Shown here: one piece after another, positions 11,947-54,232 of the stretch
Numbering within the stretch: the stretch's first letter is position 1
How the letters are laid out: every line of letters starts with the position of its first letter
Made by a program: the position numbers and the translations under genes
Assembly: GCA_020746875.1 (NCBI GenBank)
Contig: JAGTJL010000001.1
Coordinates: 3,534,001 to 3,598,000 of the forward strand
Length of the DNA: 64,000 nt
Direction of reading: 5' to 3'
From: Rhexocercosporidium sp. MPI-PUGE-AT-0058
Taxonomy: Eukaryota; Ascomycota; Leotiomycetes; Helotiales
The notes under the pieces: generated by a model
Seen by the model: only the letters and a program-made list of their open reading frames with translations
What the model was told of the DNA's origin: nothing
Database searches by the model: none

Positions 11947-12315
<369 letters not shown>

Positions 12316-12996: not shown

Positions 12997-14491
12997 ATGG
13001 CTGTCATCAATTTCAGTATCTCGATGCTACTGTTCTTCTTCGTGTCCAGTATATCATTTGCAGCTCCTTTGTCGAAGAGGGGCCCAGATGACGATCTGGC
13101 TGCTAAAGCACTCGAGAACGCGTACAAAGTGTTGAACGGTTCCTTGTCAGATGGAAGCACGAAGGTAACTTGCACAAAAGACACACTGGCTGTGAGGAAG
13201 GAATAGTATGATTCTTCTAATCCAGTTGAAAAACTTTGCTGATTCTCTATCAAAGTGGCGACTTGACAAACGACGAGAAGGATGACTACGTGAAGTCTGT
13301 CAAGTGTCTGATGGCTGCCCCATCCAGATTGAGTTCAACTCAGTATCCAGGAGCGAAGTCTCGGTACGATGACTTCGTCGTGGTACATATCAACATGACG
13401 ATGGGAGTTCATGACACTGTGAGCCCTGCACTTTAAGAGGTTCTCTGATGTGAACACTGATCATCGAAAGGCAAACTTCCTCCACTGGCATAGGTATTAC
13501 ATCTGGGCTTACGAAGTAGCGTTGAGGAGCGAGTGTGGTTACAAGGGTTATCAGCCGGTGAGTAAAATTGTCTCTTTGTGTTCGAATAACTTCTAAGTGA
13601 TGACAGTATTGGAATTGGGGGAGATACCCAGATCCCACCGTTTCGCCCATTTTTAATGGGGATGCTCACAGCATGGGCGGCAATGGCGAATCGGTTCCGC
13701 ACAAAGGCTATATTCTTGGAATGGCAAACATCATGGTACCACCGGGAAATGGAGGAGGTTGTGTCAAGACCGGGCCTTTCGCAAAGTAAGTCAGCTAACC
13801 ATCATACCTGGGCCCCTTCTCCTAACAATTTCTAGCACGACAGTAAATCTAGGTCCACTCGGGGGCGCCATAGATGCCGCTCTCGAAGTGCCGAAGAATC
13901 CTCGCTCGGATGGCTATGGATACAACCCGCGTTGTCTACGCCGCGACGTCAACAACTACTTCACGTCCCAGTACCTACGTCCTCAGGATATTTCCAACCA
14001 CATCACCTCATCTACAGATATCGAGACTTTCCAGAAAACTCTTCAAACCGACACGACTAAAGCCTTTTCACTTCACACAGGTGGTCATTACAGTATTTGG
14101 GGTGACCCTGGAGGAGACTTCTATGTCAGTCCTGCTGAGCCTGTCTTCTGGTTGCACCATGGGCAGGTAGATCGACATTGGTGGATTTGGCAGAATCAAG
14201 ATCCGGCGAATCGAGTACAGCAGTGAGTAATCCCCGATTTTATGAATGGCATCAATATGCACTCTGCTACAACGCAATTTGGTGTTAAATTTTGAGACAA
14301 TCCCATCATTTACTGACATCGCGTTGCATAGATACAAAGGAGGAACAATCATGATGCAGCCAAACAGCCCGCCAGGCAAAATTACTGACATCCAGAATTT
14401 GTCGGTCACAGCTCCCAAAGGTTACGCCGGCATTGCGAGCAAGGACTTAGTTAGCACACTTGCAGGGCCATTTTGTTACATCTATCAGTAG
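12997..14491 (+). CDS. Secreted tyrosinase (UstQ-like candidate)
   Basis: Six exons: 12997-13205, 13256-13418, 13471-13557, 13607-13785, 13836-14222 and 14332-14491. Total 394 aa, and every join keeps the frame. The start MAVINFSISMLLFFFVSSIS is a signal peptide ending near FAAPLSKR, which also offers a Kex2-type KR site. Type-3 copper sites are visible. CuA residues are in VHDT and NFLHWHRYYIW; CuB residues are in LHTGGHYSIWGDPGGDF and FWLHHGQVDRHWW. The enzyme oxidises phenols such as tyrosine side chains with O2. Tyrosinases of this short secreted type accompany UstYa proteins in ustiloxin, phomopsin and related peptide clusters. Two UstYa-family genes and a repeat peptide lie just downstream. 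An unrelated melanin or defence role is the alternative. Confidence 0.9.
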
Positions 14492-15043
14492 TGATCTCCA
14501 AGTGGCTTGTAGGGGACCCTGCCTTGGCGACGAAAGCGCAGTGTCTCTATTGAAGAGACAGATAGGCGATGGACTTTACATTATAGGTGCTCAAATACAC
14601 TACACCATGCCACCGACGTCATATTGTTGATAAATCAAATTCTCTTTACAAGTCACTCTCTTTTGCCATAATTAGCGACGTTGTATTGTGGAAGTGATGC
14701 CTGAAATACTGGAGCGAGACATGTGATGAGATCTACCAGGACCTTCTTCATACTGCCAACGATAAATCCCAACCAAATCTACGGTGCATCTTTCAACGCA
14801 TAGTATATTATTTCAGGTATCATTGTAACATTTGACTACCCTTTCCCACCCTAAGCTTAGCATTTTCAAGGTACTCGTGACTTGACTGACTGTTGTCCCT
14901 GTCTTGGGTGAAATTGACTCCATCTTACTTCCTCTCCACGCCCTCCTCCCGGCATTCCATTTGCACTGCGACGGCCGAAATCCTTGTACGCTTAAGCCAA
15001 ACCCATGTTGACCCAGCCTCCACCATTTGGAGCAGACATTTTC
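14492..15043. other. Intergenic between convergent tyrosinase and cyclase-like genes
   Basis: Convergent 3' ends. No gene recognised. Confidence 0.5.
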
Positions 15044-16171
15044 TCATTCTGGCCATACCTCCATCATGTCCAGCCACTCAAGGGTAAAGCCTGTAACAAT
15101 TTTGACCCAATCCCGGACGGTGGGAGCATCAAGGCTCGCGCTATCATTTAAAGTATCTTCAGTACTGGGTAGGGGCGAAGGTTGAAGATTAAGGAAGGGA
15201 GTGCCGGCTTCCATGAACGGAACGTAATCGGCAACCACCCCAGCACTCACGTTCGTCTCGCTTCCTTCAGACAAGAACTCAGTCGCTTTGGCCGTCTCCA
15301 AAAGACCAATATTCCGCATCCGAGCTTCAAGACTGGCAATTCTCTGAAATACCCAACTTGTCACAAGACAGTACGAGGGAACCGTGGGGCTAGCGGATCC
15401 GAGAGAATCTAGCAAAGCAAAAATGCGGATCTGGCTCAGCGCGTTTGGATATACCGATCCTACGGGATTGATCATTCTCTCTAAAGTGTTGCTAAGGTCT
15501 CTGTGTCGCGAATCAGTAACAATATTTATCGACAACGCGAAGACTTACCTCGATCCATAAAGAGAAGTTTCAGCTCCGTTTAGAGACTCACTTCCGTCAA
15601 GGAACACCAGCTGAATGCCCATGTCCATCGCTATGGTTCCACCTTCGCCAAGCGCATCCATCTCATCGTGCATTTGGGTCATGTACCCATCAATACTATG
15701 GGCAACATGCATCAAGATGGCGCAGGGAACAGCATTCGTTGCGCCTACATGCCCCGCGGGCATACTCTTACTGTCATAATGAGCAGCTAATGTCAAGAAG
15801 TTGGCTTGACCAGTCTTTGTCCACGGTGGTTCTCTGCTGAATACAAGGCTTGATATTTGAACTTCAACCCCTTTGGTTATTGATACAGTCGAGTTGTACC
15901 ACTGAAGATTCCATTTTGGCAACTGAGTGCTGAAGTAATTGACAAAGTGGTGCTGGACGGATGTATGGCCGGGAGTACCAGGGACACGGGGAATCAAAAT
16001 TGGAGACAAGAGAGCACCGTTGTCGGGTTCGAAGTCTGGACCGCTAGAAGATATGTTTCTCAAGAAATCGTCGGAGAGTGACATATAAGCATGCGTAGCT
16101 AACAGTAGACTTTCCAGAGCGAGGAAAATGATGATGGCATGGTTTCTGAGCCGGAAATGATTGTTCCTCAT
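15044..16171 (-). CDS. Glutaminyl-peptide cyclotransferase-like (M28 fold), probably catalytically altered
   Basis: Two exons, 15549-16171 and 15044-15500, joined in frame after SLYGSR; 359 aa from the ATG at 16171. That start places a hydrophobic signal segment (HAIIIFLALESLLLATHA) at the N-terminus; an upstream ATG at 16315 would add 48 residues before it. Family motifs present are LAAHYDSK (first zinc Asp), the DGxE motif region and SLYGSR. Normal enzymes cyclise N-terminal Gln to pyroglutamate on secreted peptides. Two key places differ: the usual DGEEA reads DGSES (near 15588-15602), so the residue before the zinc Glu is Ser, and the usual WHTLEDN zinc-His motif reads STEDTLND (near 15150-15180), so the His is missing. 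This may be a pseudoenzyme or one with changed chemistry. Its place inside the UstYa/tyrosinase group suggests a peptide-related role. Confidence 0.8.
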
Positions 16172-16951
16172 AGCTCTTAGAGAGATATTCAAATGTGCCC
16201 CAATGGTCGAGACTGCGCGTACTAAGCCGTGGTGTCCAAGGGGTTCATATGCAAGCCTGCGTTTTTGCCGCCTAAATTCATCAGATTTAATGAAGATAAT
16301 CTCATTGTCGGTCAAGCAGATTTTGGTATCAACGATTGAGCAGAGCTTGATGGCTCAGTAAAGATCGAGCCAGGCCACCAAGAAATTGGGTCCCAGTCTC
16401 CTACCCATAAATTGTCTCGTGCTTAGAGTGGCAAACTTTATGCATCCACTTGATGGCTAGACGATGACCAGGTTCCTTCAAAGTGACTTTTGGCCATGCG
16501 ATTGGCATATGAGTCCGTGCGAATTGAATATTGAGACGAGGTGAGAAAGTGAAACGGGTTGCTAGTGCCAAGCTCTTTCGCGTCCAGTTTGGGCTCTTGC
16601 ATGGGGATGCTCGTGGATCGTGCAGGTCGGCGAGCAGACCCGAAACCTTATCGTTTGAAGATCCAAACAAAGATCTACGAAATAAAACATCTTGCAAATG
16701 TATCGCCAAGGCTTTAACGGCCCGGAACTAGGGTGTACCTTGTTGTCTTGAAGTCCGTGATCTTCAAACATCACTTGTCTCTCCTCTAGCCACATCAATA
16801 GGGACGCTACATGTCTTGCACACAGAACCTGCTTTCCGCCATCTGATTTCTCTGCCACAGCTTTCCCGTCGAACCTTTTTTGCATTCTCCGATCTTCGTT
16901 ATCTACTAATTTCAACACGCTGGCGTTGTTTGTTTTCTTCCATTAATCATC
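16172..16951. other. Divergent promoter region between cyclase-like and UstYa genes
   Basis: About 0.8 kb between divergent starts, suitable for shared regulation. Frames at 16401-16918 are not supported. No specific operator is identified by eye. Confidence 0.45.
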
Positions 16952-17914
16952 ATGAGCAGTCAGCAGCCGAAATACGAAAATGTTCAAATGGACGATCGGG
17001 ACGACTCCTCGATCACCGAGGTAGAAGAATCGCTAATTGGAGACGAGAAACACATGAGTGCAGAGGAGTTCAGACAGAGATACGCCAGGAAGTCAAGGCG
17101 AACGACATGTCTATCTGTTCTGAAAGAAGCGCGCTGGATTCTGGATATAGGATTGCTGTTGGTCATCATTGCGCTCTTGCTGCGAAGCCAATCCCAGAAC
17201 GCCATTCCAAAGACCAGTGAGCATGAAGTGGGCGGGGACATGACAGGCGTTGGACCGCATCGTACGGACTTCCAACTCTCTAAATTGATCAATCTGAGAG
17301 CAGACGTCTGACAAGAAGAACAGTTGGAACCCAAGTCACGACCTTCCACATCAATCAAACTTTCGCTCCTTACAATACGACAGAATTCTTCCGAGAAGAA
17401 GTCCTGACAGCATGGAATGAACTGATGCCTCGTAGGACAATCCCGGGCTCTTGAGATGACAATCACTGACTTCTTCATAGATGGGATTGGCTTCCAGTGG
17501 GTCAACGACACACACAGATACCACGATCTACCACATCCTATTATCTGGCCAAACAAGACAGTCTTCACGACTTCTATGACCCATCAACTACATTGTCTAT
17601 TCGCAATCGTTGAGACATATTCTGGCTTGACATCAAATACGACTTTGCCAGAGGATCATCACTGGCACATGATCCATTGTTTTGATTACATGCGGCAGGC
17701 AATTATGTGTTCGGCAGATATGGCTCTGGAAGGATTAGAGACAACATTTCCCGATCACAATGGAGGGTCAGATGGCTGGGATTCCAAGCACGGTAAGTTC
17801 TCGTTGAATTCGTACGAAGTCTAGTGCTGACAACCTCCAGTTTGCAAGGATTACAGTCAGGTCATAAATTACTTGGAAAGCGTCAGGGCGTATGATGATC
17901 AACAGATCTACTAG
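16952..17914 (+). CDS. UstYa-family (DUF3328) oxidase-like protein A
   Basis: Four exons: 16952-17261, 17324-17431, 17481-17792 and 17841-17914; 267 aa, all joins in frame. It is a type II membrane protein: a polar acidic N-terminus, then one span (LDIGLLLVIIALLL, about residue 68). A lumenal domain follows with two His/Cys motifs, THQLHCLF and HWHMIHCFDYMRQAIMC, that define the family. The C-terminal WDSKH...VCKDYSQVINYLE is also typical. UstYa proteins act in oxidative cyclisation of fungal ribosomal peptides and in some other pathways. A second copy lies 0.7 kb away on the other strand, and a Kex2-repeat precursor lies about 3 kb downstream. Exon 2's acceptor was chosen at 17323 because it gives the frame to GTQVTTFHINQTFAPYN. 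Confidence 0.88.
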
Positions 17915-18575
17915 TTGAGCGCGAAAGATACGGGGCGAATGTTTACCTCCTTTCTCAAATCTATCAGAACTCCACGTGAACTCCCAGTTCTGACTCGACA
18001 ATTCTCAATGGCCATCGCCTGGAAGGAATGTGACCCCGACTCTACAACATCGAGGTAAGTATGCCCGTAGAAATTTTGTGATACTGGATTTAAATACCAT
18101 TCATGAAAGTTTGAGAAGGTGCTGCTGGTGATATCTCTCGTGAGGAATGAGGATGTGGTGAATGCGCATGTAAGCAGTGAGCTAGTCGTGGGCTCAATAA
18201 ACAAATATTTGTTAAGGAAAATGTACACACATTGGTAGAAACATTTCATCAGAATGCTTTGACCATGATCTATACTTGCTCAAGTAAATTGGAGAATTAA
18301 TTACCGGTACTTCAACACGATTAGCGAAGATGGCTTGAAGACCTAACCGAAGGGCGCGTAGGACCATGCTTTTGGCGCCCAAGAAAACAATTCTTCGAAG
18401 TTTCTAATGATTGTATCAAGTTTGTTTTCATTTCATCATCAATGGTCTTAATTTGTGATGTCCCGGTCCAAAATATTACTGCCTGTCGAACTCTGGAGCA
18501 GATCCATTCCCTCGGACACCGTTCCTGTAACTCCATGCTTGCTATTGTTCCCTTGTTCGCTCATAAAGAGTTCCT
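17915..18575. other. Intergenic between convergent UstYa-family genes
   Basis: The two genes converge here. Frames at 17911-18249 and 18321-18536 show no domain. Confidence 0.5.
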
Positions 18576-19447
18576 TCAAAATATATCATCGTTTGCGACA
18601 GTATTATCAATTGCCCACTTTCTGACAGCATCGAAGTCTCGACAGACATGCTTTGTGCTGAAATCTGGCCATGGATCTCCAGGCATATCGGCTCTTTCGT
18701 GAAAGGTAATTACGCCTATATCAACCTGGCACATGATGTTCATTCGAAGCATTTCGAGACAGTGATCTGAGTGACTGTTAGATTTCTCGTACCGCGGTTG
18801 TCGGTTAATCTAAACCCCAAAGCCGACGTGGATGAATGCTTACCAAGATGTGTTCGTATTTTGTCCTTGTTATCCTCCTTGAAGTCGTCCTTTCCCATGT
18901 AGAACTCCGGATGTGTGCTCTTTCTGACAAGGTTCAAGCAATGTAATTGATGAAAGACCTCGATACCGATGCGGTACCCTTCCTTGCCTGTCTTAGGATC
19001 TTTCGTCTTGACCGAAGTCTCTGGCTTCTCGACAAGCTTCAACTCCTCCGGGGTGATCATTTGGTCGCCGATGGACCTCGTGACCCAATCCCACATCTCG
19101 TCCGTCTCATTACTGGTGCCAATGTAGCCGGTGGCATCCCCTTGGGTTGCGTTGAAGGTGCCGGTCACATATTTGACAGCTCCCCGGGCAGGCGAGTATG
19201 AAGAGAACTTGTCGAGATATTGAGCCGTTGTTGGGATGCTTCGAATATATGTTGCTGATAGTAGAACAGCAGACGCAAGAAAAAGAGCGAAATTGGCAAT
19301 CATCAAACGCTTGAGACGATTGACTTGCAATATCTTCTCATGCTGGTGCTTCAGTTCGAAGAGATCGACCCCCTCTTCATCATCTGCTATTGTCGAGCAT
19401 GTTCCGTCTGAAGACACCTTGTTATATTCATGTTCCATTACACTCAT
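18576..19447 (-). CDS. UstYa-family (DUF3328) oxidase-like protein B
   Basis: Two exons, 18844-19447 and 18576-18766; 264 aa. The intron is GT-AG with a GTAAGC donor at 18838-18843. The ATG at 19447 gives a 65-residue cytosolic N-terminus followed by one membrane span (ANFALFLASAVLLSATYI), the normal UstYa layout; an in-frame ATG at 19564 would add 39 residues. Lumenal motifs are EVFHQLHCLNLVRK and, restored by the splice, HLDHCLEMLRMNIMC, i.e. both HxxHC motifs. The end reads FSTKHVCRDFDAVRKW. The protein is clearly divergent from copy A. UstYa proteins commonly occur as pairs (for example UstYa and UstYb) in dikaritin clusters. Confidence 0.88.
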
Positions 19448-20693
19448 CTTTGGCAGCACAGCTGTGTCTAACGCTTGAATTTCGATAAGAAGGATTGTGA
19501 AAGATAGTATTGAAGGATAGAATTTGCGTTTTCGCCGAAGTTTGAGCCGTTGCTGAGATGTCAAGTCCGATGTAACTCGGATAGATGCTTTTTCGAGAGC
19601 CGTTGACAGTGGCTAGTTCTCTACTCCGTTAGAAATTCTGACGGCAGATCCTAGAAGTGCTGAATGTAGTTTAACTCGTCGGAGACTCTACCATGCATGA
19701 AATGAGTACAGCCATGTCACAAGCCAAGCTTGTGATATCAGTTCGACCATCTGAATATCCGGAGGAAATCATGTTGTTCGGGGCCTATGTGGGGAAGAGT
19801 GCAAATCAAAACATGCAGCTGACATCCAGTGTTACGAGAAGCACTTCGGAGGCACGGAAGATGCGATAAATGTGGAAATAATCTAGTGGATGCGTTGCGC
19901 TTGGTGTTTCTGCGACTGTTTGGTTTCAAAATCGTGGCTTTTTTACAGATGCGAGGGGGCTCAAGCGACCCCAACACCTCGGAAGTCAAAATCAGCCCTA
20001 GAACAATTTGCGCTAATCTCGTTTGAGAAATGCAATAAATCGCAGGATTCTTTAGTGATGGACTCGGAAGGGAGAGAGCTTCTCCATCACCCGCAGCATC
20101 CAACCATGAGTGCTTGTAACTTGGCACCATACTGCGGTCATTCACCTCGAGTGATGACCAATCGTATCTGATCGTCGGATCAACGCTACCTTAAGCTACA
20201 CTAGTCAGCAAGGGTTTGAATTGACCAAGACTTAGTATGGACCAATATAGATGCTCGTGGTCCCCAACCATGGGATGAAACAGGTATTCTTAGGTGCCAG
20301 GTCCAAACTATGAGAAAGTGACACTTGCATTGAACTTGCATGAATTGAGCAATACCATCTTGGCTGGCTGTCAATGGTCGACTAAGCACGTTGAGACACT
20401 CGTTGACAACTGATCAGCATTCTCTGTTACCAACTCGGCACGGATTTCCATCCGGTTTCGGTTTGAATGGAGGTAAGGCTTTCGTTGTTGTCTGGCAGTC
20501 AGTGGGAAGTAGGCTGTATAAGTAACCCAAGTCTTCCAGATACGTGCTCATTATCTTCTCAATCTTGCTTTGCACAACTCACTTCGAAGCTTGCATTCAT
20601 TCTCTTCTCCATAATTTCTTAGCTTCTTTATACTCATCTGCTGGCCAGTTGCATTAATTCCATCCATCCACTTTACTCCACACATTTTCCACC
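19448..20693. other. Promoter region between UstYa B and the repeat peptide
   Basis: Divergent spacer of about 1.25 kb. A TATAAGTAA element at about 20517-20525 lies roughly 170 bp before the peptide ATG. Frames in 19738-20171 have no recognisable product. A CT-rich stretch with short 5' leader character (ATTCTCTTCTCC) precedes the ATG at 20694. Confidence 0.45.
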
Positions 20694-21214
20694 ATGCAAT
20701 TGACTGCGCTCACACAACTTTTGGCCGTGGCCTTGATGGCTACTATGCCTATTGCTCAAGCTGCTCCAGTAAGTTCAAAAGACTTCAAAGCTAGTACTGA
20801 GACTGACGAATGGAAAAGGTTGATGTAGCTCAAGCAGACGTTGCCTTGGCAGTTCGTCATCACAAGGGCGCTGGTGGTGGGGCGGCGGCTGGTGGAGCTC
20901 CAGCTGGTGGATTGGCTGCTCTGTTCGGAGGTGGCGCAAAAGGCGCTGCTAAGGGTAACAACAAGAGACATCACAAGGGTGCTGGAGGCGGAGCCGCGGC
21001 TGGTGGAGCTCCCGCTGGCGGATTGGCTGCTCTCTTTGGCGGTGGTGCAAAGGGTGCTAAGGGTAACAACAAGAGACATCACAAGGTAAGATTACTTTCT
21101 CAAGTAATTTCAATAACGCTGATATTCTTTCAATAGGGAGCTGGAGGTGGCAAAGCAGCAGGAGCGGCCCCCGCTGGTGGGCTGGCGGCTCTTTTTGGAG
21201 GCAAGGGCAACTGA
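20694..21214 (+). CDS. Secreted repeat protein with Kex2 sites; candidate RiPP (dikaritin-type) precursor
   Basis: Three exons: 20694-20768, 20819-21085 and 21137-21214; 139 aa, both introns 50-51 nt and GT-AG. The first 22-24 residues are a signal peptide (MQLTALTQLLAVALMATM, cleavage after AQA). A short leader (VDVAQADVALAVR) follows. Then come three near-identical repeats of 37, 36 and 28 residues, each beginning HHKGAGGG and containing APAGGLAALFGG. Repeats 1 and 2 end GNNKR, so dibasic KR sites lie between units. Signal peptide plus KR-separated repeats is the layout of Kex2-processed repeat proteins, including UstA, PhomA and AprA precursors. The repeats have no Tyr or Trp; Phe and His are the only ring side chains. 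Codon-level identity is high, implying recent duplication. The alternative is a structural glycine-rich secreted peptide unrelated to the neighbours. Confidence 0.8.
20858..21211 (+). repeat. Coding tandem repeat, three units (37, 36, 28 codons)
   Basis: Unit 1 is 20858-20968 and unit 2 is 20969-21076. Unit 3 starts at 21077 and continues after the intron to 21211. Unit 2 lacks one Ala relative to unit 1; unit 3 is truncated and has Lys and Ala substitutions. Confidence 0.9.
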
Positions 21215-30767: not shown

Positions 30768-32388
30768 ATGTCCGCACTGGCAAACATCTACAAAGAAGGG
30801 ATTGATTTTGCAGCCCTAGCTCTCCAAGATGCAGATTTTGCGAAAGTGTAAGTTGATATTCCGATTTCGTATTGCGAATCCTACTCTATGTTTGAGAATT
30901 ACCCCTCCTTACCCCTCCTTCCAAAGCACAGAAGATCTCGTCACAACTTCAAGCTTCGTAGCTAACCTCCCACAGACTGAAATCTAATGGCCAACTCGAT
31001 TTCAGTAATCCAGAGTCTGTTCAGCAGCTCACCAAGTCCCTGCTGAAGCGTGATTTTGGCCTTAAAACAACGCTTCCTCCAGACCGACTTTGTCCGCCTG
31101 TGAGTTATTCTTTCCGCTCCATCCTACACATCTAACATATCTCAGGTTCCCAGTCGATTTAACTATGTCCTATGGATCCAGAGGTTATTAGATAGCACTA
31201 GTGATTCCTACACAGATAGCTACGATGCCGAACGAGAGGTTTGTGGTCTCGATGTCGGTACAGGCGCGAGTTGCATCTACCCACTGTTAGGATGTGCTCT
31301 GCGTCCGAAGTGGAGATTCGCCGGTACAGGTATGCTTCCATTGCCCTCATCAAGACCGCTCCTTATTCAGATACAGATATCGATGAGAAAAGTCTCCAGT
31401 TCGCGAAGCAGAATGTGCAGAACAATGGGATGCAAAACAGGATCAAACTACTCCAGACTCAGCTGGATGATCCCCTCTTACCTCTAGATAAAATGGGATT
31501 TGAGAAGTAAGTTTCTAGTTCTGTGTATCTCAAGACCACCTTATTGATAATTCTCTCAAGCATCGACTTCAGCATGTGCAACCCACCCTTCTACACCTCA
31601 ACCACCGAAATGCTCTCCTCGGCATCCCTCAAGCAACGACCCCCATTTACAGCCTGCACCGGCTCCGTTAACGAAATGGTCACTCCCGGCGGCGAAGTGA
31701 CCTTCATCACCCGCATGATCGAGGAGTCTCTCATCCTCAAAGAACGCGTCCAGTGGTACACGTCTATGCTAGGAAAGTTCTCGAGCATAGAACCGCTGGT
31801 CAAGAAGTTAAGGGATGGAGGAGTGGATAATTTCGCGGTTACGGAGTTCGTGCAGGGGAGTAAGACGAGGAGGTGGGGTCTTGCGTGGAGTTTTGATGAT
31901 TTAAGACCCGGTATGGATGTCGCAAGGGGGGTAAGCAGTTTGCAGAAAGCTCTGTTGCCGTTTCCGGGAGAGTATGTGATTGCCGTGAGTACTTTTCCTT
32001 AAGTCAAGTCGTTACAGGGATGAGACATACTTACGAGTCCTAGTCAACCAAAAATCACATTGAAGCTGGGGAGCGAGTCAACGAGACATTGGCACAGCTC
32101 CCTCTGAAATGGATGTGGAAACCTAAGCTCTCTACAGGTATTGGATTCAGTGACAAGGCTGTCTGGTCTCGAGCGGCTCGTAGGCATGTCTCAATAGGAC
32201 GCAATGAAGCTGTGGATGATGAAGACGAAGATGATATGGCTTTTGGCTTCAAGATTGTGGTAGAGCCTAATCAGGGTGGGGTGGGTGGATCGAAGACCAC
32301 GATCAGGTGGTTGAAGGGTCATGATAGTGTGCTATTTGAGAGTTTTTGTGGGATGTTAAAGAGGAAGGTGGAGGAGGGTGAAAAATGA
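30768..32388 (+). CDS. METTL16-type RNA N6-adenosine methyltransferase
   Basis: Six exons: 30768-30847, 30976-31099, 31146-31329, 31377-31506, 31561-31984 and 32044-32388; 428 aa. The N-terminus begins with the IYKEGIDFAALALQDADF segment and KSLLKRDFGL, which match the METTL16/YbiN family start. RFNYVLWIQRLL is followed by the SAM-binding GLDVGTGASCIYPLLG. The catalytic tetrad occurs in MCNPPFY (NPPF). In the family these enzymes methylate U6 snRNA and related RNA hairpins. The acceptor of exon 4 was set at 31376 because it gives TDIDEKSLQFA without extra residues; an acceptor six bases earlier is possible. The C-terminal exon carries an acidic insert and no vertebrate-type VCR is obvious. 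Confidence 0.88.
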
Positions 32389-33745: not shown

Positions 33746-34505
33746 AAAAGTACTTTTGCAGATGCGTAAGTGAAGACAGCTAGTAACTACAGTCAACTCG
33801 CTTAATTACCTGGAACAACAGACAATCGGAATTTAAGTTTAACAGCAAAGTAGTCTATTCATCTACATACGAATCTTAGCTAAAGCTCGTCCCACCATCC
33901 TTGAGAGAAAATGCATAAACTGCGCTAGATATATGTTTGTAAAAAGTGCTCGAAAAGTACTTCTGCAACACCTCAACGAATAGCCTCGCAATTTGATAAC
34001 CCCATACCCAACTGTTGTAAACATAGACATACTCTAAGCGACACATGTTGCTAATGTAGTTTGAAGGTATGACAGGCGATTTCAGCATCGAGGAAATCGA
34101 CACCGTCGATTCAGTCCCTGTGTATAGACAAATATTCCTCAATCTCGTCCTCCTGGTAATCGTGCTTTTTGGCCAGATGATCCCTCAGTGAGCCTGGTCT
34201 AGTGTGAGTTACGATGATGATACAGCCGGGGACCTGGCACTTCTGAGGTACGAAAGCGGCTTTCTTTCCTGGCATATATTTGTCTTTCTCCTTCCGATCG
34301 TTCAGCCCATGAGTCCCAAGATGGTGGCGATAGGTCATGGCGGTTGCGTATTCGACCTTGGAGGAACAGCCTGGAAACTGACATCGACTGGGTGTGTAAG
34401 GAGACTGGCTCTTTTCCATATGCTTCTTGAGTTCCTTGTACGAGTCGAAAAGTACTTTTAGATCACAATCTTCCTTGCCACAGCTGCGCGGCTTCCATTC
34501 GTGAA

Positions 34506-34570
34506 AGTCTTTGATGTGTGATGTGAGTCTTTGATGCGTGATGTGAGTCTTTGATGTGTGATGTGAGTCT
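34506..34570. repeat. 20-bp minisatellite, three copies plus partial
   Basis: The unit AGTCTTTGATGTGTGATGTG occurs at 34506-34525, 34526-34545 (one change) and 34546-34565, followed by a 5-bp partial copy. It lies in the coding region of the first zinc finger. Two extra units add 40 bp, which is not a multiple of three. Confidence 0.95.
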
Positions 34571-35721
34571 TCCTTGCCTGTTGAAGCTCCTCTTACATCC
34601 AGAACGATCACACGGGAATGGCTTGGCCTTACTCAACTCAGTGAAGGCTTCTCGCGACAGAATCTTGCATGTCCGTTGATGCTCGAGCACTGCTCCATAG
34701 AAGGAATTCTGATATGAGCAGCCAAACTCAGCGTGCTTGCATGGAAAAACCCATGAAGTTACAAGATCCTAGCTATGACACACATAGAAAGATCTAGCTA
34801 AGGCAAGCTGGTCCTTATGGTACCCTTTCTGAGCCAGGACTTGATTGGTGGAGACGTTGATCTTGGAGAAAAAACGAACGAAATCGACACCGTCGATTAG
34901 CAGCTCAGAGATCATTTTCGGGACTGTTTGTGATACAATATCGTCGAAGTATGCCTCTTCTACAGCGGCAGTCGGCGTCTCTGAAGAATCGATCTCAGCG
35001 AGGCCCTCAAAGTCAATCTCTCCAGTAAACAGGCGGGGATCGATATGCAGTGGGCTGGGGGCTTTGGGCAAAGCGTCTTTAGAGCTGCTGATGGGAGTTG
35101 TATCCTCCATGTCAACGAATTGCAGAGCATCCGGGTCTACGCTACCAGGAGGGAGGCAAGAGTCCGTGAACAGCTCGCGACTCTCGGAGGCATGAAAGGT
35201 CGTATCTTGGTACATCACATCATCCTGGACAAGGGCGATATCAACGGCGTCGATTTCGAGAGTATTGAAGAGCATAGCAGCCTTTGGGTCAGATGGCTCT
35301 TCCAATAGGTCGTTTGGTGTTGTTGGGGTATCACCAGTGGTGACAGTCTCTTCTGAAAGTACTTTTGAAAGCGTTAGTCTATGTTAAGCGGGTCCCTTTG
35401 AAGAATGGGTAGTACCTGAAGAGCCGGGTGATGACGGATTATTCGCCTCTGTCGCCCAAGCCTCCCGTGACTCTGCAGTGACCTTGCTGGACATGGCCGC
35501 TCTATTTTTCACGATAGACGGATCCAGACCCTCTTTCTCACACATCTCAGTGATGACCCTGGGGTCAAAGTCTGCGACGCTTTACATAGCGACGGTCTGT
35601 TGTTACAAGATTGAACAGATCCTGGAAATTCTGTTCGACTCTCATGGTGTATACCGAGTCTCTGATGCCTCCAGCATAAAGCTTCGTAGTCTTGGTGTTG
35701 TTGTGGCCAAGGTACTCGCGC

Positions 35722-48757: not shown

Positions 48758-49315
48758 TTACTGATACGCAATGATAACACCGATTGCCCTTCGGACTTCG
48801 TCTACATCAACACCCTCATCACACGTATCATTTTCTATCTGTAGCCTCTGCATGATCGAATCTAGGGACTCATCTTGCTTTTCTCGTTGAACGAATCCTT
48901 CGACCCCTTTCTCGCCAGCACGTTCATTTTCCTTCTCCAACAATGATTCTAAGATCCTAGAATGGAGTCCTGGCGTTTTGTGCGTCATGTAATCCAATAT
49001 TTCCGGGCACTTATCCCTCAATTGAAAGGCGCGTGCAAGTAAAGGTTTGTTGTGCTGGCTAAATAAACGGTCTGGGTGGCCGGCCAGAAGAATCTTTGTT
49101 TCGGGTATGAAACCATACTCCACTGCGACTAGGAGGGCAGCGTTTTTCACATGGTGCTTGTAGAATCCACTCCACCATCGTTGCGTACTGGCAATAAACA
49201 GCATATTCTCAATACTGACTACCATACCAGACCTGATGGCAAGTAGAAAGCACTTTCCGACCAGGCTGTTTTGTGCTGAGTCTACAACGTCTATGTCAGG
49301 ATAATGATTTCTCAT
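48758..49315 (-). pseudogene. Ankyrin-like C-terminal segment of the NACHT locus
   Basis: 185 codons with helical pairs resembling degenerate ankyrin repeats (VGKCFLLAIRSGMVVSIENM, ALLVAVEYGFIPETKILLAG). It starts four bases before the stop of the upstream NACHT frame (49312), so the two are probably one gene separated by a frame break. Confidence 0.5.
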
Positions 49316-51655
49316 AAGGAAGTGCGATATTGTCGTAGCTTTTTATCTACGTCCGAAATTGAGGGACAGCCAAGGCTTGTGTGTGAAAGTACATTTTGCA
49401 GTGGGAAAGTTCTGAGAATGTAACGTAACAGTAACTTATCTTCCAAATAGCAAACCATCTCCTGGACGTCGTGATTGGTGGGAGTTTGGTGGCAACACAT
49501 TGTTGGAACGTAAGTCGTGCAGTCTTTTGGAAGAACAACTTTCAGATAACTCATCTTATCTTCATCCACCTTGAGCTTTGCTTCATAGTCTGTGATCGTG
49601 AGGCTTTCTGCATCCTTGCTTGCAAGAAAGTCTTTTGCCGTTTGATGAGTGAGTTGGACCAAGAACGACTCATCGACATCGAAGTCGTGAAATATCTGGT
49701 CTGACAACTGGGAAGACGGCCTAACGACAGATAAAAATGGTCCGCAAAGTTCCTGAAGTGAACGTTGGAAATGTTTCCAGGATCTGACTTGTGGCCTGTT
49801 TGAGCTGACGGGATCTTTCATTGATGCCAAGCCAGTTTCGACGTCCCATGTGATGGAAAATGCATCGAGAAGCTCCTCAAGTGTTAACAGTCTAGTCGCA
49901 CTAGCTCCTATGACCCAGAGTAGTATCCGGCGTGCCTTCACTTGATCATAGTAGCTGTTTGTCTTCTGTAGGTTGAACAAGATCCTCTGGTACATGCCAT
50001 GAATCTCCAAAGGTAGCCCAAGAAGAAGCTCTTTTAGTTCAACAAACGTGAACATGCCTTTCTGGACACGATGTATAAGATCCTGCATGATGAGCGTCAC
50101 CCAGAGAATGACGCCTTGTGCATGCTTCGGGATATAAGTTCGGATAGATGACAGCTCTTCTTCCTCGGATTCTCGAGCTCTGAGAAACATCCTGCCAGCC
50201 CGGGACATTGATCCAGATATAAATATGTTCATTTTGGTACGGCGTGGTGTATGCTTTGTCCCAGGTCGACATGGTCGTCGATTGACCGGTGGCCTTATAT
50301 CCTCTTCATCACTCGAGTCAAAAGACGTCATTGATTTTCGTAACACTCTCAGACCAGCATCGGCAATCATCTCTATGTCCCTGCTATTTGCATATTCTGA
50401 TACAATCCGATGAGAATATTTCAAACCTTTCTCGATCTGTCGGTTTGGGCGACTGAGGACCAGGACTTTAATCCTGGAACCAGGAATATTGACAATAGAT
50501 AAGAAGAGATCCCAGTATCTTCTCAAGATGGCCGGTCGATTTGTTAAGTCCTGGATAGGATGTCAAAGTCGAAGTATTTTGTGACTCGTCTATAGCATCT
50601 ATAACGCACAGAATCGAAGGTGGATCCTCTTTGATCGCGGCCAGACTCAAGAGAACTTCTGGTAGAGAAGCAAGCCACTCCGGAGATCTGTAAAAATCTT
50701 TATAGTACCTGAACAATCTGCGATCTTGTTTCAAAATCTGGAAAAGCAAAGCTCTGAGCATCGATGAGTGAGATGTACTCCGATCTCCGCCTCGTTCGTT
50801 GTAGAACCAGTCTGCAACGTGCCACAAATCATCCTTCGACCCGGATACTAAACGGCCTAGTATGGTTTTTGCGAGCACGGATTTCCCGCTATCAGGCTTT
50901 CCTTGAATCCAAAGAATCCCCGATGTATCATTACACCACTCGACGTATGGTCCGTACGACCAGATCCATTCATTTGTGCCTGATTCGGCATGTGTGACTT
51001 GCTCCCGGCGGGAAAACATCGTGTCGTAGTTGAGGGAATCGAGACATTCTACATGATCGGTCAACATTCAATCAAGGTCTATAGACAACGGGCATACCAG
51101 TAGTGTCAGTGGTCTCATCAATCCTTCGCCCTCGCCAAGATTCCATGCTTCCAACTTCCTCGCTCCACGATGATACTAGTAGGCGAACGTTTTCAGACAA
51201 CCGAGCAGCCTTGAACACAAGCTTACAAGCCAACACAGCAATTGGGTCTTGCGCCTTTTCTAGTACAATCAACAATTGTGCGCTTTAATTATTATCCGTG
51301 GCATCAAGAATATCTTTCAGTCGCAAGCATGCCAGAAGGATGTCTACTAAGTCTTCGTTTTCATATCAAGTCCGGTTAAGTGAAGTCGTCGCAAGAGACT
51401 CCGATATGCCCTGGACAATTGGAGGATTGCTCCGCGCATATCATTGTAATTAACAAATATTTGGCTGATGAGGCATCTAAATATCCCAAGAAGAGACTTG
51501 GGCCGTGTTGCCGTGTAGATTGTATCTGCTATGTTTGAGAAGTGGAGATACACGCCCTGGCCCTTGTGGCCTTCTTTAATCGAAAAAGATCGTTGAATCT
51601 TCTGATACACTTCGGAGGCGATGCTGTCGTGATTTAGTTCTCCGGATCTGGGAGT
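49312..51655 (-). pseudogene. NACHT-type NTPase region of a fungal NLR-like protein, with frame breaks
   Basis: The block at 50468-51067 begins with CLDSLNYDTMFSRREQV, the usual lead-in to fungal NACHT domains. It carries Walker A (IQGKPDSGKSVLAKTI) and Walker B (SILCVIDAIDES). The frame then changes near 50555 to 49312-50526, which continues with IKVLVLSRP (sensor region), VILWVTLIMQDL and the winged-helix-like LLWVIGASATRLLTLEELLDAF. Upstream, 51072-51655 encodes connecting helices (YIWYLITPRSGELN, LGIFRCLISQIFV) in other frames with stops between. The change near 50555 could be a very short intron; the upstream stops look like lesions. Confidence 0.65.
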
Positions 51656-51863
51656 AATTAGGTACCATATGTACTCGGCGTCATCATCTTTCCTCAGCCA
51701 TTTTTAGTACCAGAGGTATTGGTAAACCAAGATAGGGAATCAGAGTCACAATTTAACGCAGAATTCATATTTTCTGACTCCAATATATGACCAGATGCCG
51801 TTAGAGCTTGGTGGCCAATATATTTTGCTGCTTCGATCACAGGCTGGAGGTCTAGAATGGTTG

Positions 51864-52960
51864 TTAGCACAATATCTTCAATGCGATCTGTTGGGTCTCA
51901 CTTTCTCGTGCGATCAGTCGTTTCCCACATGCTTCCACAGCTGAACATACGGTCTCCGACTGGAGATACTTTTGAGTGCATGCACTTATCTGGTCCAGTT
52001 TCGATGTCTCATCTAATCCCACAGATTCAAGGCCCCACAAAACATTAAATCTGAAGTACTGTCGATTCTGCGCCATATGAGAGTGATGCCTGTGGAAATC
52101 TTCGGCGCGTCTTTCTGTGTCAGTTGCTATAGCTGGAAGGGCTTTTCCTAGTCTCAAAGTGTCATCTCCAAACGATCTGATGGCAGGTATTCCAGTTCCG
52201 ATGGAGACAAGACAGAGAATGTTGTCCTCCAGACGCCAATTATCACCTTTCTTGAAAACATCGAAAGCTTCGGTCCACATTTCGCTTATGGGATTATTAG
52301 CAGGTGTAGAGCCATCTATGAAATCAAAATTGCCAATTATAACAGGATCGAAGAACGAGGAAGCCGCTGAAGTTGCTCGTGCAACCTCCCATACTTTTGC
52401 GATGTTCAGAAGATCCGAGCCTCTGCGTCTCGACGGGTAGGTGGACAGAACGACTGTTTCGGCAGCAAGCTTGCTCGTTGCACACACGAATCTTTAGTTC
52501 AGGATCAGTAGCACATCGTCACAAATTGTATCTACCGTACTTACGTCTTACATCCGAGTTCAGAACAGTCTTTCAGCAACTCATCACGATCATAACCTTT
52601 CTCGTCCAGTAGCTCACCCACACCTTCCTCAATTGCAGTGTGGTCAAATCGTCCTTGTACCTGGCCTTTTAATGTCACTCTATGGTGCATTTTCGTGAAT
52701 ATCTTCGGAGAAAGTGCGATGTATGCTTCGATAGCCTCGTCAATCGGCATAGCAAGTCTGCCAAGCATCAGAGCAATCAAACCTCCTGTCGAAATGCCTC
52801 CTATCATATCGAAGTGGTCACACGGCTTCGGTGGTTCTTCGAGATTTATCGACTCCATCAACCTTTTAACGATATGAAGAGACGATAACCCTCGAACTCC
52901 ACCTCCATCCAGACATAGCAGGCGTAGATCCTGCCCTCGCGCTGGGTTTGGATTTGACAT
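51864..52960 (-). CDS. Patatin-like phospholipase domain (N-terminal part of NLR-like locus)
   Basis: Two exons joined by a GT-AG intron at about 52498-52550 (GCKT/FVCATSKLAAE). All patatin signatures are present: DGGGVRGLSSL (oxyanion loop), GISTGGLIAL (GxSxG nucleophile Ser) and DGSTPANNPI (catalytic Asp, DG/A motif). It would be a lipid acyl hydrolase. Patatin domains fused to NACHT or NB-ARC and then ankyrin or TPR repeats are a standard fungal NLR architecture, and the matching NACHT region lies directly downstream on the same strand. The frame ends at 51864 soon after the domain. Either it stops there as a stand-alone enzyme, or a lesion has separated it from the NACHT part. Confidence 0.82.
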
Positions 52961-54232
52961 GATGTTTGGGATGGGTCACGTCTCTGACACAGACTGCTTG
53001 TTATCGCGAGGCTCAAGTTGTCTGCAAGTAAAGCCCTCAGGTTCGGATCAGCGTAAAGTACTACGCGTAGCCAGTTTGGTCTAGGTCTGGCAAGTCAACT
53101 TGAATCTATCGCTTGGCCCGGAAGCTTAAAAAAAAAAGGACTCCCCTAAAAGCTTATTAGGTCGTCTCTGGATGCGAGAGGAAAATCAGAACATTATATG
53201 AGAGAAGAAAAGGCTCATAAGGCTGCCGCTGAGGTAATTAGTAACACGAGCAAGTTGAGTGAGAGCATTTACCTCACTGATTGCCAGCGGTTCGCCGACA
53301 ATACTCAGCCACAACTTTTCGTTCAAAATCTGCCCACCAAAAAGACCGTAGTCAGCCCTCGACGATAAGACGCCCTAGGACGCCATCAATATTCTTTGCG
53401 GTTTTCTAAGCCAGGTCTCTTTTAACAACCCCAAAACCACTGGTGTGAGCACATTCTGGTTTTAATCACGTGAGCATATTCGTACACATGTGGATTCATC
53501 GACGAGGACTTGCCCAGGCGGCGATCGCAAAATTCGCGGTAGGAGTGAGCAGGAGGTATTTTCCCAATATGGCAGCCATATTCTTCACACGCAGTCTGTG
53601 GGAAAAGTTAGTAATATTGTCCATGAGTGCGGAAAGTTAGCCATATCCGAGCTGTCAAAACTTGAAATAGGTATGAGAAAAGAAAGCGGGCAAGGGCCTT
53701 CAGCGACCAGTTTTTATCAAGTCTTTTTAAGCTCCATTCTCTCAGACTAAGGCTATAATGGTGACTTAGCCCATATAAAAAATTCGGAACCGTGAAAGTG
53801 TTTGAGAACGCTATGTATGTCTACACAAGATTTAATCACTGCTGTGCGGCAGGAAATGAGACTGCAGAAAGCAAAGAGACTCAAAAGCGAAGAGAGGTGT
53901 ACTGAGGCGAATGGATTTATGAATTTTTGGTGTCAGTAGGAATGAAGGTTGATTGCGATTTATGGCCGCGAGATTTGAGCGAGTTGAAAGAGCGAAAACC
54001 AAGAGTTTCTTGACTTCTTCCTTTTATTTCTTTTGGGAAATATAGCTTAAGAGCTGCTTCTCAAGACAGGAAAGTGCCAGGGATGATAAAAAGTGTTCCT
54101 TTCGAGACAAAGAAATGGTCTTGGTTGTGTATATAGGTGAGCTCCTGAAAAGTAATCATGCCCATCCTTCACAGCATATTTCAACCATTCCATGCCCCTC
54201 CTACATCTCCTCAACTCGTCCCAACGAAATAT
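52961..54232. other. Intergenic, 1.3 kb
   Basis: No gene recognised. The frame at 53490-53750 has no domain. Confidence 0.5.

Follow-up and report, generated by a model that had tools for sequence, protein, structure and literature searches.

The locus described here occupies positions 12997–21214 of a 64-kb stretch of genomic DNA (the window) from Rhexocercosporidium sp. MPI-PUGE-AT-0058 (Helotiales). It holds five genes, which encode a secreted tyrosinase, a glutaminyl-cyclase-like protein, two UstYa-family proteins (DUF3328 oxidases; UstYa A and UstYa B), and a precursor of Kex2-type repeats (Table 1). A first-pass annotation had proposed this gene set, and it is supported by spliced gene models with GT–AG introns for all five genes, by Pfam matches, and by orthologs of the precursor. 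The tyrosinase gene is followed by two head-to-head pairs: the cyclase-like gene with UstYa A, spaced by 780 bp, and UstYa B with the precursor, spaced by 1246 bp. UstYa B is identical (100%) to the database entry BKA65DRAFT_18149 (P0003), and the tyrosinase is identical to BKA65DRAFT_418020 (P0123).

The precursor consists of a signal peptide (here and elsewhere assigned by eye), followed by HHKGAGGGAAAGGAPAGGLAALFGGGAKGAAKGNNKR, a second copy of 36 aa, and a C-terminal copy of 28 aa that carries no Lys–Arg (KR) site. The three repeats of 37, 36, and 28 aa and the two KR sites between them agree with the first-pass description of three KR-separated repeats, except that the third is a shortened C-terminal copy. 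Tandem repeats at dibasic sites behind a signal peptide are the features of a Kex2-processed repeat protein (KEP). Each repeat opens with HHKGAGG and contains one Pro and one Phe, the latter just preceded by Leu. The repeats are long, Gly/Ala-rich, and basic, with no acidic linker and no Asp or Glu. The absence of Tyr, noted earlier for the repeats, extends to the whole precursor. No Pfam match to the precursor was obtained. Several splice options exist for its first intron, and the chosen model agrees with the leader and layout of the two homologs described below.

A protein database search, with scoring confined to the 7993 candidates of greatest word overlap, returned two precursor homologs at E ≤ 0.001. 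One, from Leptodontidium sp. 2 PMI_412 (P0001), shows 81% BLASTP identity, and the other, from Cadophora sp. M221 (P0002), 60% identity over 90% of the precursor. The leader is almost unchanged among the three proteins, and in 3/3 species the HHKGAGG starts, the single Pro per repeat, and the lack of Tyr recur. At aligned positions, repeat copies within a species are 93–100% identical, versus 66–82% for second copies compared between species; the repeats therefore show a pattern of concerted evolution. These identities, together with the Tandem Repeats Finder (TRF) score of the array (360) and the UstYa and tyrosinase Pfam matches, which far exceed their cut-offs, exclude a chance origin of the repeat array and the gene set. 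A genome search at E values up to 1 found no second copy of the precursor outside the window. A hidden Tyr-containing precursor was considered and rejected: a six-frame scan of the 64 kb for dibasic repeats, which repeats split by introns escape, gave only the gene at 20694.

The layout of the precursor was compared with that at the other UstYa loci of the genome, 22 in number, of which eight were scanned for repeats with both flanks and eight in part. A clear repeat precursor was found at two of the eight loci scanned with both flanks, namely at C2:2370008-2369439 (QGYLIKYPNAEEESSVEKR) and C7:1258906-1259296 (QYLAAFAEDEAASKDKR), each with five copies of which the last is shortened. Each forms a divergent pair with a UstYa match at a distance of under 1 kb and begins with an exon that looks, by eye, like a signal peptide. 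They contain Tyr and acidic linkers, and their repeats open with Gln immediately after the basic site; the layout is thus common to the window precursor and these two, whereas the composition differs. A frame at C6:1440298-1440660, with a UstYa match at a distance of about 2 kb, has three repeats of about 40 aa containing VSGYNWK and was left unclassified.

Both UstYa proteins carry two HxxHC motifs, as claimed at first pass, at residues 174 and 202 in UstYa A and residues 166 and 200 in UstYa B. A two-sequence profile found 514 database relatives; among the 120 listed, 109 are UstYa A-like and 11 are UstYa B-like, and at least two HxxHC motifs are present in 115. When 39 of the 109 UstYa A-type proteins were aligned, P0004 was 57–90% identical to the other 38, and 55 columns were invariant. 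By these sequences, UstYa A is unusually well conserved in the aligned set, a pattern that suggests a single conserved, Tyr-independent substrate. We take the aligned relatives, judged by their names, to belong to the Leotio-, Sordario-, and Dothideomycetes; five of the 11 UstYa B-type entries among the matches listed carry an organism name, all presumably helotialean. Linkage in relatives was read by eye from matching contig sizes or locus tags of database representatives, not from DNA. In Oculimacula yallundae, UstYa A and UstYa B have the consecutive locus tags VTL71DRAFT_2402 and VTL71DRAFT_2401, and in Hyaloscypha bicolor the two entries lie on a contig of equal size (2,794,813). The predicted structures of the relatives P0004 and P0003 have mean predicted local distance difference test (pLDDT) values of 54.7 and 57.1, which do not suffice for a fold search, and no relative of UstYa B was found among solved structures at E values up to 1.

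The tyrosinase is closest among solved structures to catechol oxidase (4j3p, E 3e-90) and a tyrosinase-like protein. The first-pass annotation had counted it, with the precursor and the UstYa proteins, in a core set. The head-to-head placement of the precursor and a UstYa gene, seen also at the two other loci, supports the precursor–UstYa part of this set; the core role of the tyrosinase is weakened because its homolog lies on a different contig from UstYa A in Halenospora varia and Mollisia scopiformis, both Leotiomycetes. Among the matches listed, tyrosinase and UstYa A could be compared in 25 other species or strains: their contig sizes agree only in Rhynchosporium (5,603,676) and disagree in the other 24. 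In Leptodophora/Leptodontidium the tyrosinase and precursor entries lie on contigs of equal size (6,231,909). Such shared contigs are 5–6 Mb long, so that the evidence for linkage is weak even there, and many of the distant tyrosinases listed are only 47–62% identical and may be paralogs. By our own grouping of matches, the genome contains 14 tyrosinase loci and 23 UstYa loci. With the window excluded, a UstYa locus is found no more than 15 kb away from 2/13 tyrosinase loci (expected 0.15, p 0.0096); the corresponding figures are 1/13 within 10 kb (p 0.10) and 2/13 within 20 kb (p 0.016). The link of the tyrosinase to the cluster is at best recent, and the enzyme is possibly an accessory of the precursor/UstYa core. 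Window positions 11947–12315, 0.7 kb ahead of the tyrosinase gene, are taken up by a perfect array of 92 (TTTA) copies.

The glutaminyl-cyclase-like protein aligns to the glutaminyl cyclases 3si2 and 8vpl over about 300 residues, and to this extent its first-pass designation is correct; an active cyclase, however, is not indicated, as five active-site residues are replaced. In glutaminyl cyclase, the zinc ligands are Asp159, Glu202, and His330, and Glu201, Asp248, Asp305, and His319 form the active-site network (PMC10435661). In the window protein, the residues corresponding to those of 3si2 (numbered as in the human enzyme, counted back from His330) are changed from Glu201 to Ser, Asp305 to Ala, His319 to Asn, Trp329 to Glu, and the zinc ligand His330 to Asp, and Asp159, Glu202, and Asp248 are retained. 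A paralog in this genome (C23:390817-391906), which served as an intact control, retains all eight residues. The window gene is still an open reading frame despite these changes, and its product is probably a diverged paralog, a pseudoenzyme lacking cyclase activity. Action of this protein on the precursor repeats was rejected because the repeats start with His, have no N-terminal Gln, and would meet a protein in which several active-site residues are replaced. It is imaginable that the intact paralog acts on the two Gln-starting, Tyr-containing precursors of the genome.

As the first-pass annotation argued, a Tyr-free core would need chemistry other than Tyr modification. Its further view that the product would fall outside known classes is not supported, given published precursors. 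In the survey of Umemura 2020, DUF3328 genes lie near 22% of 7878 precursors, 78% thus being without; Tyr is reported in 65.6% of the repeats of DUF3328-accompanied precursors, about a third lacking it (PMC7329392). The types G-3 and G-8 of that survey carry a di-histidine motif and Pro in place of Tyr. G-3 covers 20 genera, including Cadophora, Rhynchosporium, and Hyaloscypha, with DUF3328 in 57/64 cases, and G-8 covers 18 genera with DUF3328 in 45/49; the two types have no genus in common, and DUF3328 accompanies 102/113 cases in total (PMC7329392). Ring closure at Phe has likewise been described, in victorin (PMC9233826). Section 10 of Le Marquer 2019 names no di-histidine motif (PMC6339444), and in the literature searched, so far as its text was covered, no published product of a Tyr-free di-histidine precursor type was found.

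We favor, on a modest balance of probability, the reading that the locus is a Tyr-independent member of the systems that combine a Kex2-processed repeat protein with UstYa enzymes, most likely of the di-histidine type G-3. The precursor, UstYa A, and UstYa B are likely to form its functional core, a proposal in which we place rather more trust than doubt. The precursor is probably of type G-3 because its repeats open with His-His-Lys and contain Pro, and because an ortholog occurs in Cadophora, a G-3 genus. A DUF3328 gene also lies within 15 genes of the precursor, UstYa B being its neighboring gene model.

We infer that UstYa A and UstYa B act on the precursor, as we do the modified residues, the cleavage products, and the biological role given here. 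The signal peptide would take the precursor into the endoplasmic reticulum. There, UstYa A and UstYa B, as membrane-anchored oxidases whose HxxHC motifs are likely to build a dicopper center, would oxidize the single Phe, His residues, or backbone positions of the repeat. Cleavage by Kex2 after KR and trimming of the ends by Kex1 would release peptides of about 28–35 residues that start with His-His-Lys, with monoisotopic masses, if unmodified, predicted at 2897.48, 2826.44, and 2399.26. The tyrosinase may contribute further oxidation in this lineage. A wider proposal, speculative and rather unlikely to hold as a whole, is that UstYa A is the conserved dicopper oxidase of di-histidine precursors across the Leotio-, Sordario-, and Dothideomycetes, making Tyr-independent, oxidized His-His-Lys peptides of about 30 residues that possibly bind copper and serve signaling or development, not as toxins. 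For the favored reading, the overlap of genera is a lead only: named UstYa A relatives occur in 9/18 G-8 genera against 10/70 other genera (Fisher p 0.0025) and, with both di-histidine types pooled, in 12/38 against 7/50 (p 0.043).

Several points weigh against the favored assignment. The G-3 genera alone are not enriched for UstYa A relatives (3/20, p 0.87); two of the nine comparisons fell below 0.05, and the six remaining besides G-3 gave p 0.15–1.0. The genus test was made post hoc on 120 of 514 matches, with its nine comparisons uncorrected, and is confounded by taxonomy. The precursor was likened to G-3 by motif, Pro, and genus only, that is, by description and not by sequence. In relatives, the evidence on linkage consists of contig sizes and locus tags. 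Promoter words common to the cluster genes were not above chance, as 20, 19, and 14 of 60 random triples equaled or exceeded the observed counts.

The precursor could instead yield an unmodified linear secreted peptide with a structural, surface-active, antimicrobial, or signaling function, its UstYa neighborhood being incidental. Long, basic, Gly/Ala-rich repeats without Tyr or an acidic linker would suit such a peptide, many repeat-precursor peptides are reported to be linear (PMC9769878), and most surveyed precursors have no DUF3328 neighbor (PMC7329392). This explanation has to treat as coincidence the head-to-head arrangement with a UstYa gene, which is the same at two other loci of the genome, as well as the DUF3328 neighbors of nearly all published di-histidine cases (PMC7329392); we consider it unlikely, if still to be reckoned with. 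It is improbable, too, that UstYa A and UstYa B are a conserved pair serving another substrate, peptide or small molecule, to which the precursor is unrelated. The wide conservation of P0004 among its 38 aligned relatives, as against just two precursor homologs, fits this idea, and DUF3328 proteins also act outside ribosomally synthesized and post-translationally modified peptides (RiPPs), in polyketide and non-ribosomal pathways (PMC12048977). The scarcity of precursor homologs may, however, be apparent, since low-complexity matches may have crowded out relatives among the candidates scored, and the dibasic-repeat scan, within its limit for intron-split repeats, offers no second repeat precursor as a substrate in the window.

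We hold it to be very improbable that the locus is a full ustiloxin/phomopsin-type pathway with the tyrosinase and the cyclase as dedicated tailoring enzymes. The proximity of tyrosinase and UstYa loci within 15 kb would speak for it, as would the published observation that tyrosinase genes peak at a distance of two genes from precursors accompanied by DUF3328 (PMC7329392), but at 10 kb the genomic excess is reduced to a single locus and the contig sizes differ in nearly all other species among the matches listed. The repeats offer neither the Tyr required for the known ustiloxin chemistry nor an N-terminal Gln, active-site residues of the cyclase-like protein are replaced, and the surroundings supply no fitting methyltransferase or S41 peptidase, as detailed below.

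Table 1. Genes and intergenic region of the cluster, in window coordinates.
Feature	Span	Exons	Strand	Basis
Secreted tyrosinase, catechol-oxidase-like, 394 aa	12997-14491	6: 12997-13205, 13256-13418, 13471-13557, 13607-13785, 13836-14222, 14332-14491	+	Gene model; Pfam Tyrosinase 190 bits, 9e-56
Glutaminyl-cyclase-like protein, 359 aa	15044-16171	16171-15549, 15500-15044	-	Pfam Peptidase_M28 41 bits, 2e-10
UstYa A (DUF3328 oxidase), 267 aa	16952-17914	4: 16952-17261, 17324-17431, 17481-17792, 17841-17914	+	Gene model; Pfam UstYa 75 bits, 8e-21
UstYa B (DUF3328 oxidase), 264 aa	18576-19447	19447-18844, 18766-18576	-	Pfam UstYa 177 bits, 5e-52
Divergent intergenic region UstYa B/precursor, 1246 bp	19448-20693		.	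Start codons of both gene models
Kex2-type repeat precursor, 139 aa	20694-21214	20694-20768, 20819-21085, 21137-21214	+	Gene model; repeat array

The remainder of the window was surveyed by a Pfam scan of 59 of the 60 frames of at least 110 aa outside the cluster, the one left out being the frame over the (TTTA) array; exon pieces may escape such a scan. Within this scope, neither an S41 peptidase nor a small-molecule methyltransferase was found, and the only methyltransferase outside the cluster is of the RNA type (31104-31999). Other matches include an epimerase, a flavin mononucleotide (FMN) oxidoreductase, GH32, a glutamyl/glutaminyl-tRNA synthetase, and a Macro domain; the frames at 817-2893 appear transporter-like by eye and have no Pfam match. 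On the minus strand at 49315-52975, neighboring frames match patatin (55.8 bits) and the NACHT-type NTPase NPHP3_N (85 bits), with a sub-threshold winged-helix match, and perhaps represent a fungal gene resembling those of NOD-like receptors (NLRs). At 34506-34571, a 20-nt unit is repeated in tandem 3.3 times; the frame that contains it, 34114-34632, matches only FOXP-CC, and that below threshold.

By 2022, five dikaritins had been reported among many types of fungal repeat precursors (PMC10512285). The window shares with ustiloxin and phomopsin, members of this group, a repeat precursor, at least two UstYa-family proteins (here both with the double HxxHC motif), and, at least in this species, a tyrosinase close by. 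It differs from them in the absence of Tyr from the precursor and its orthologs and in its long Gly/Ala repeats without acidic residues; nor did the frames scanned yield an S41 peptidase or a methyltransferase that would fit. In asperipin-2a, a DUF3328 enzyme with a dicopper site forms a bond from the Tyr oxygen to the Phe C-beta (PMC12186524); a DUF3328 oxidase, in the window a putative dicopper enzyme, is common to both systems, whereas the Tyr oxygen is absent from the window repeats. The ring of victorin, also made from a Kex2-type precursor, joins the side chain of the C-terminal Phe to an internal Leu (PMC9233826), and each repeat of the window has a single, Leu-preceded Phe, a likeness drawn by description. 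The nearest counterparts are the G-3 and G-8 precursors, which have in common with the window Kex2-separated repeats, no Tyr, His-His and Pro, DUF3328 nearby, and Leotiomycete genera. The locus is therefore probably a further case of a published, chemically uncharacterized peptide group, not a wholly new one. It is a compact case, with one precursor, two UstYa enzymes, and short peptides of predicted mass. Its lasting interest is that a UstYa enzyme of unusual conservation would act on a Tyr-independent substrate; if UstYa A does serve these precursors, its conservation would indicate that Tyr-independent RiPP chemistry is widespread.

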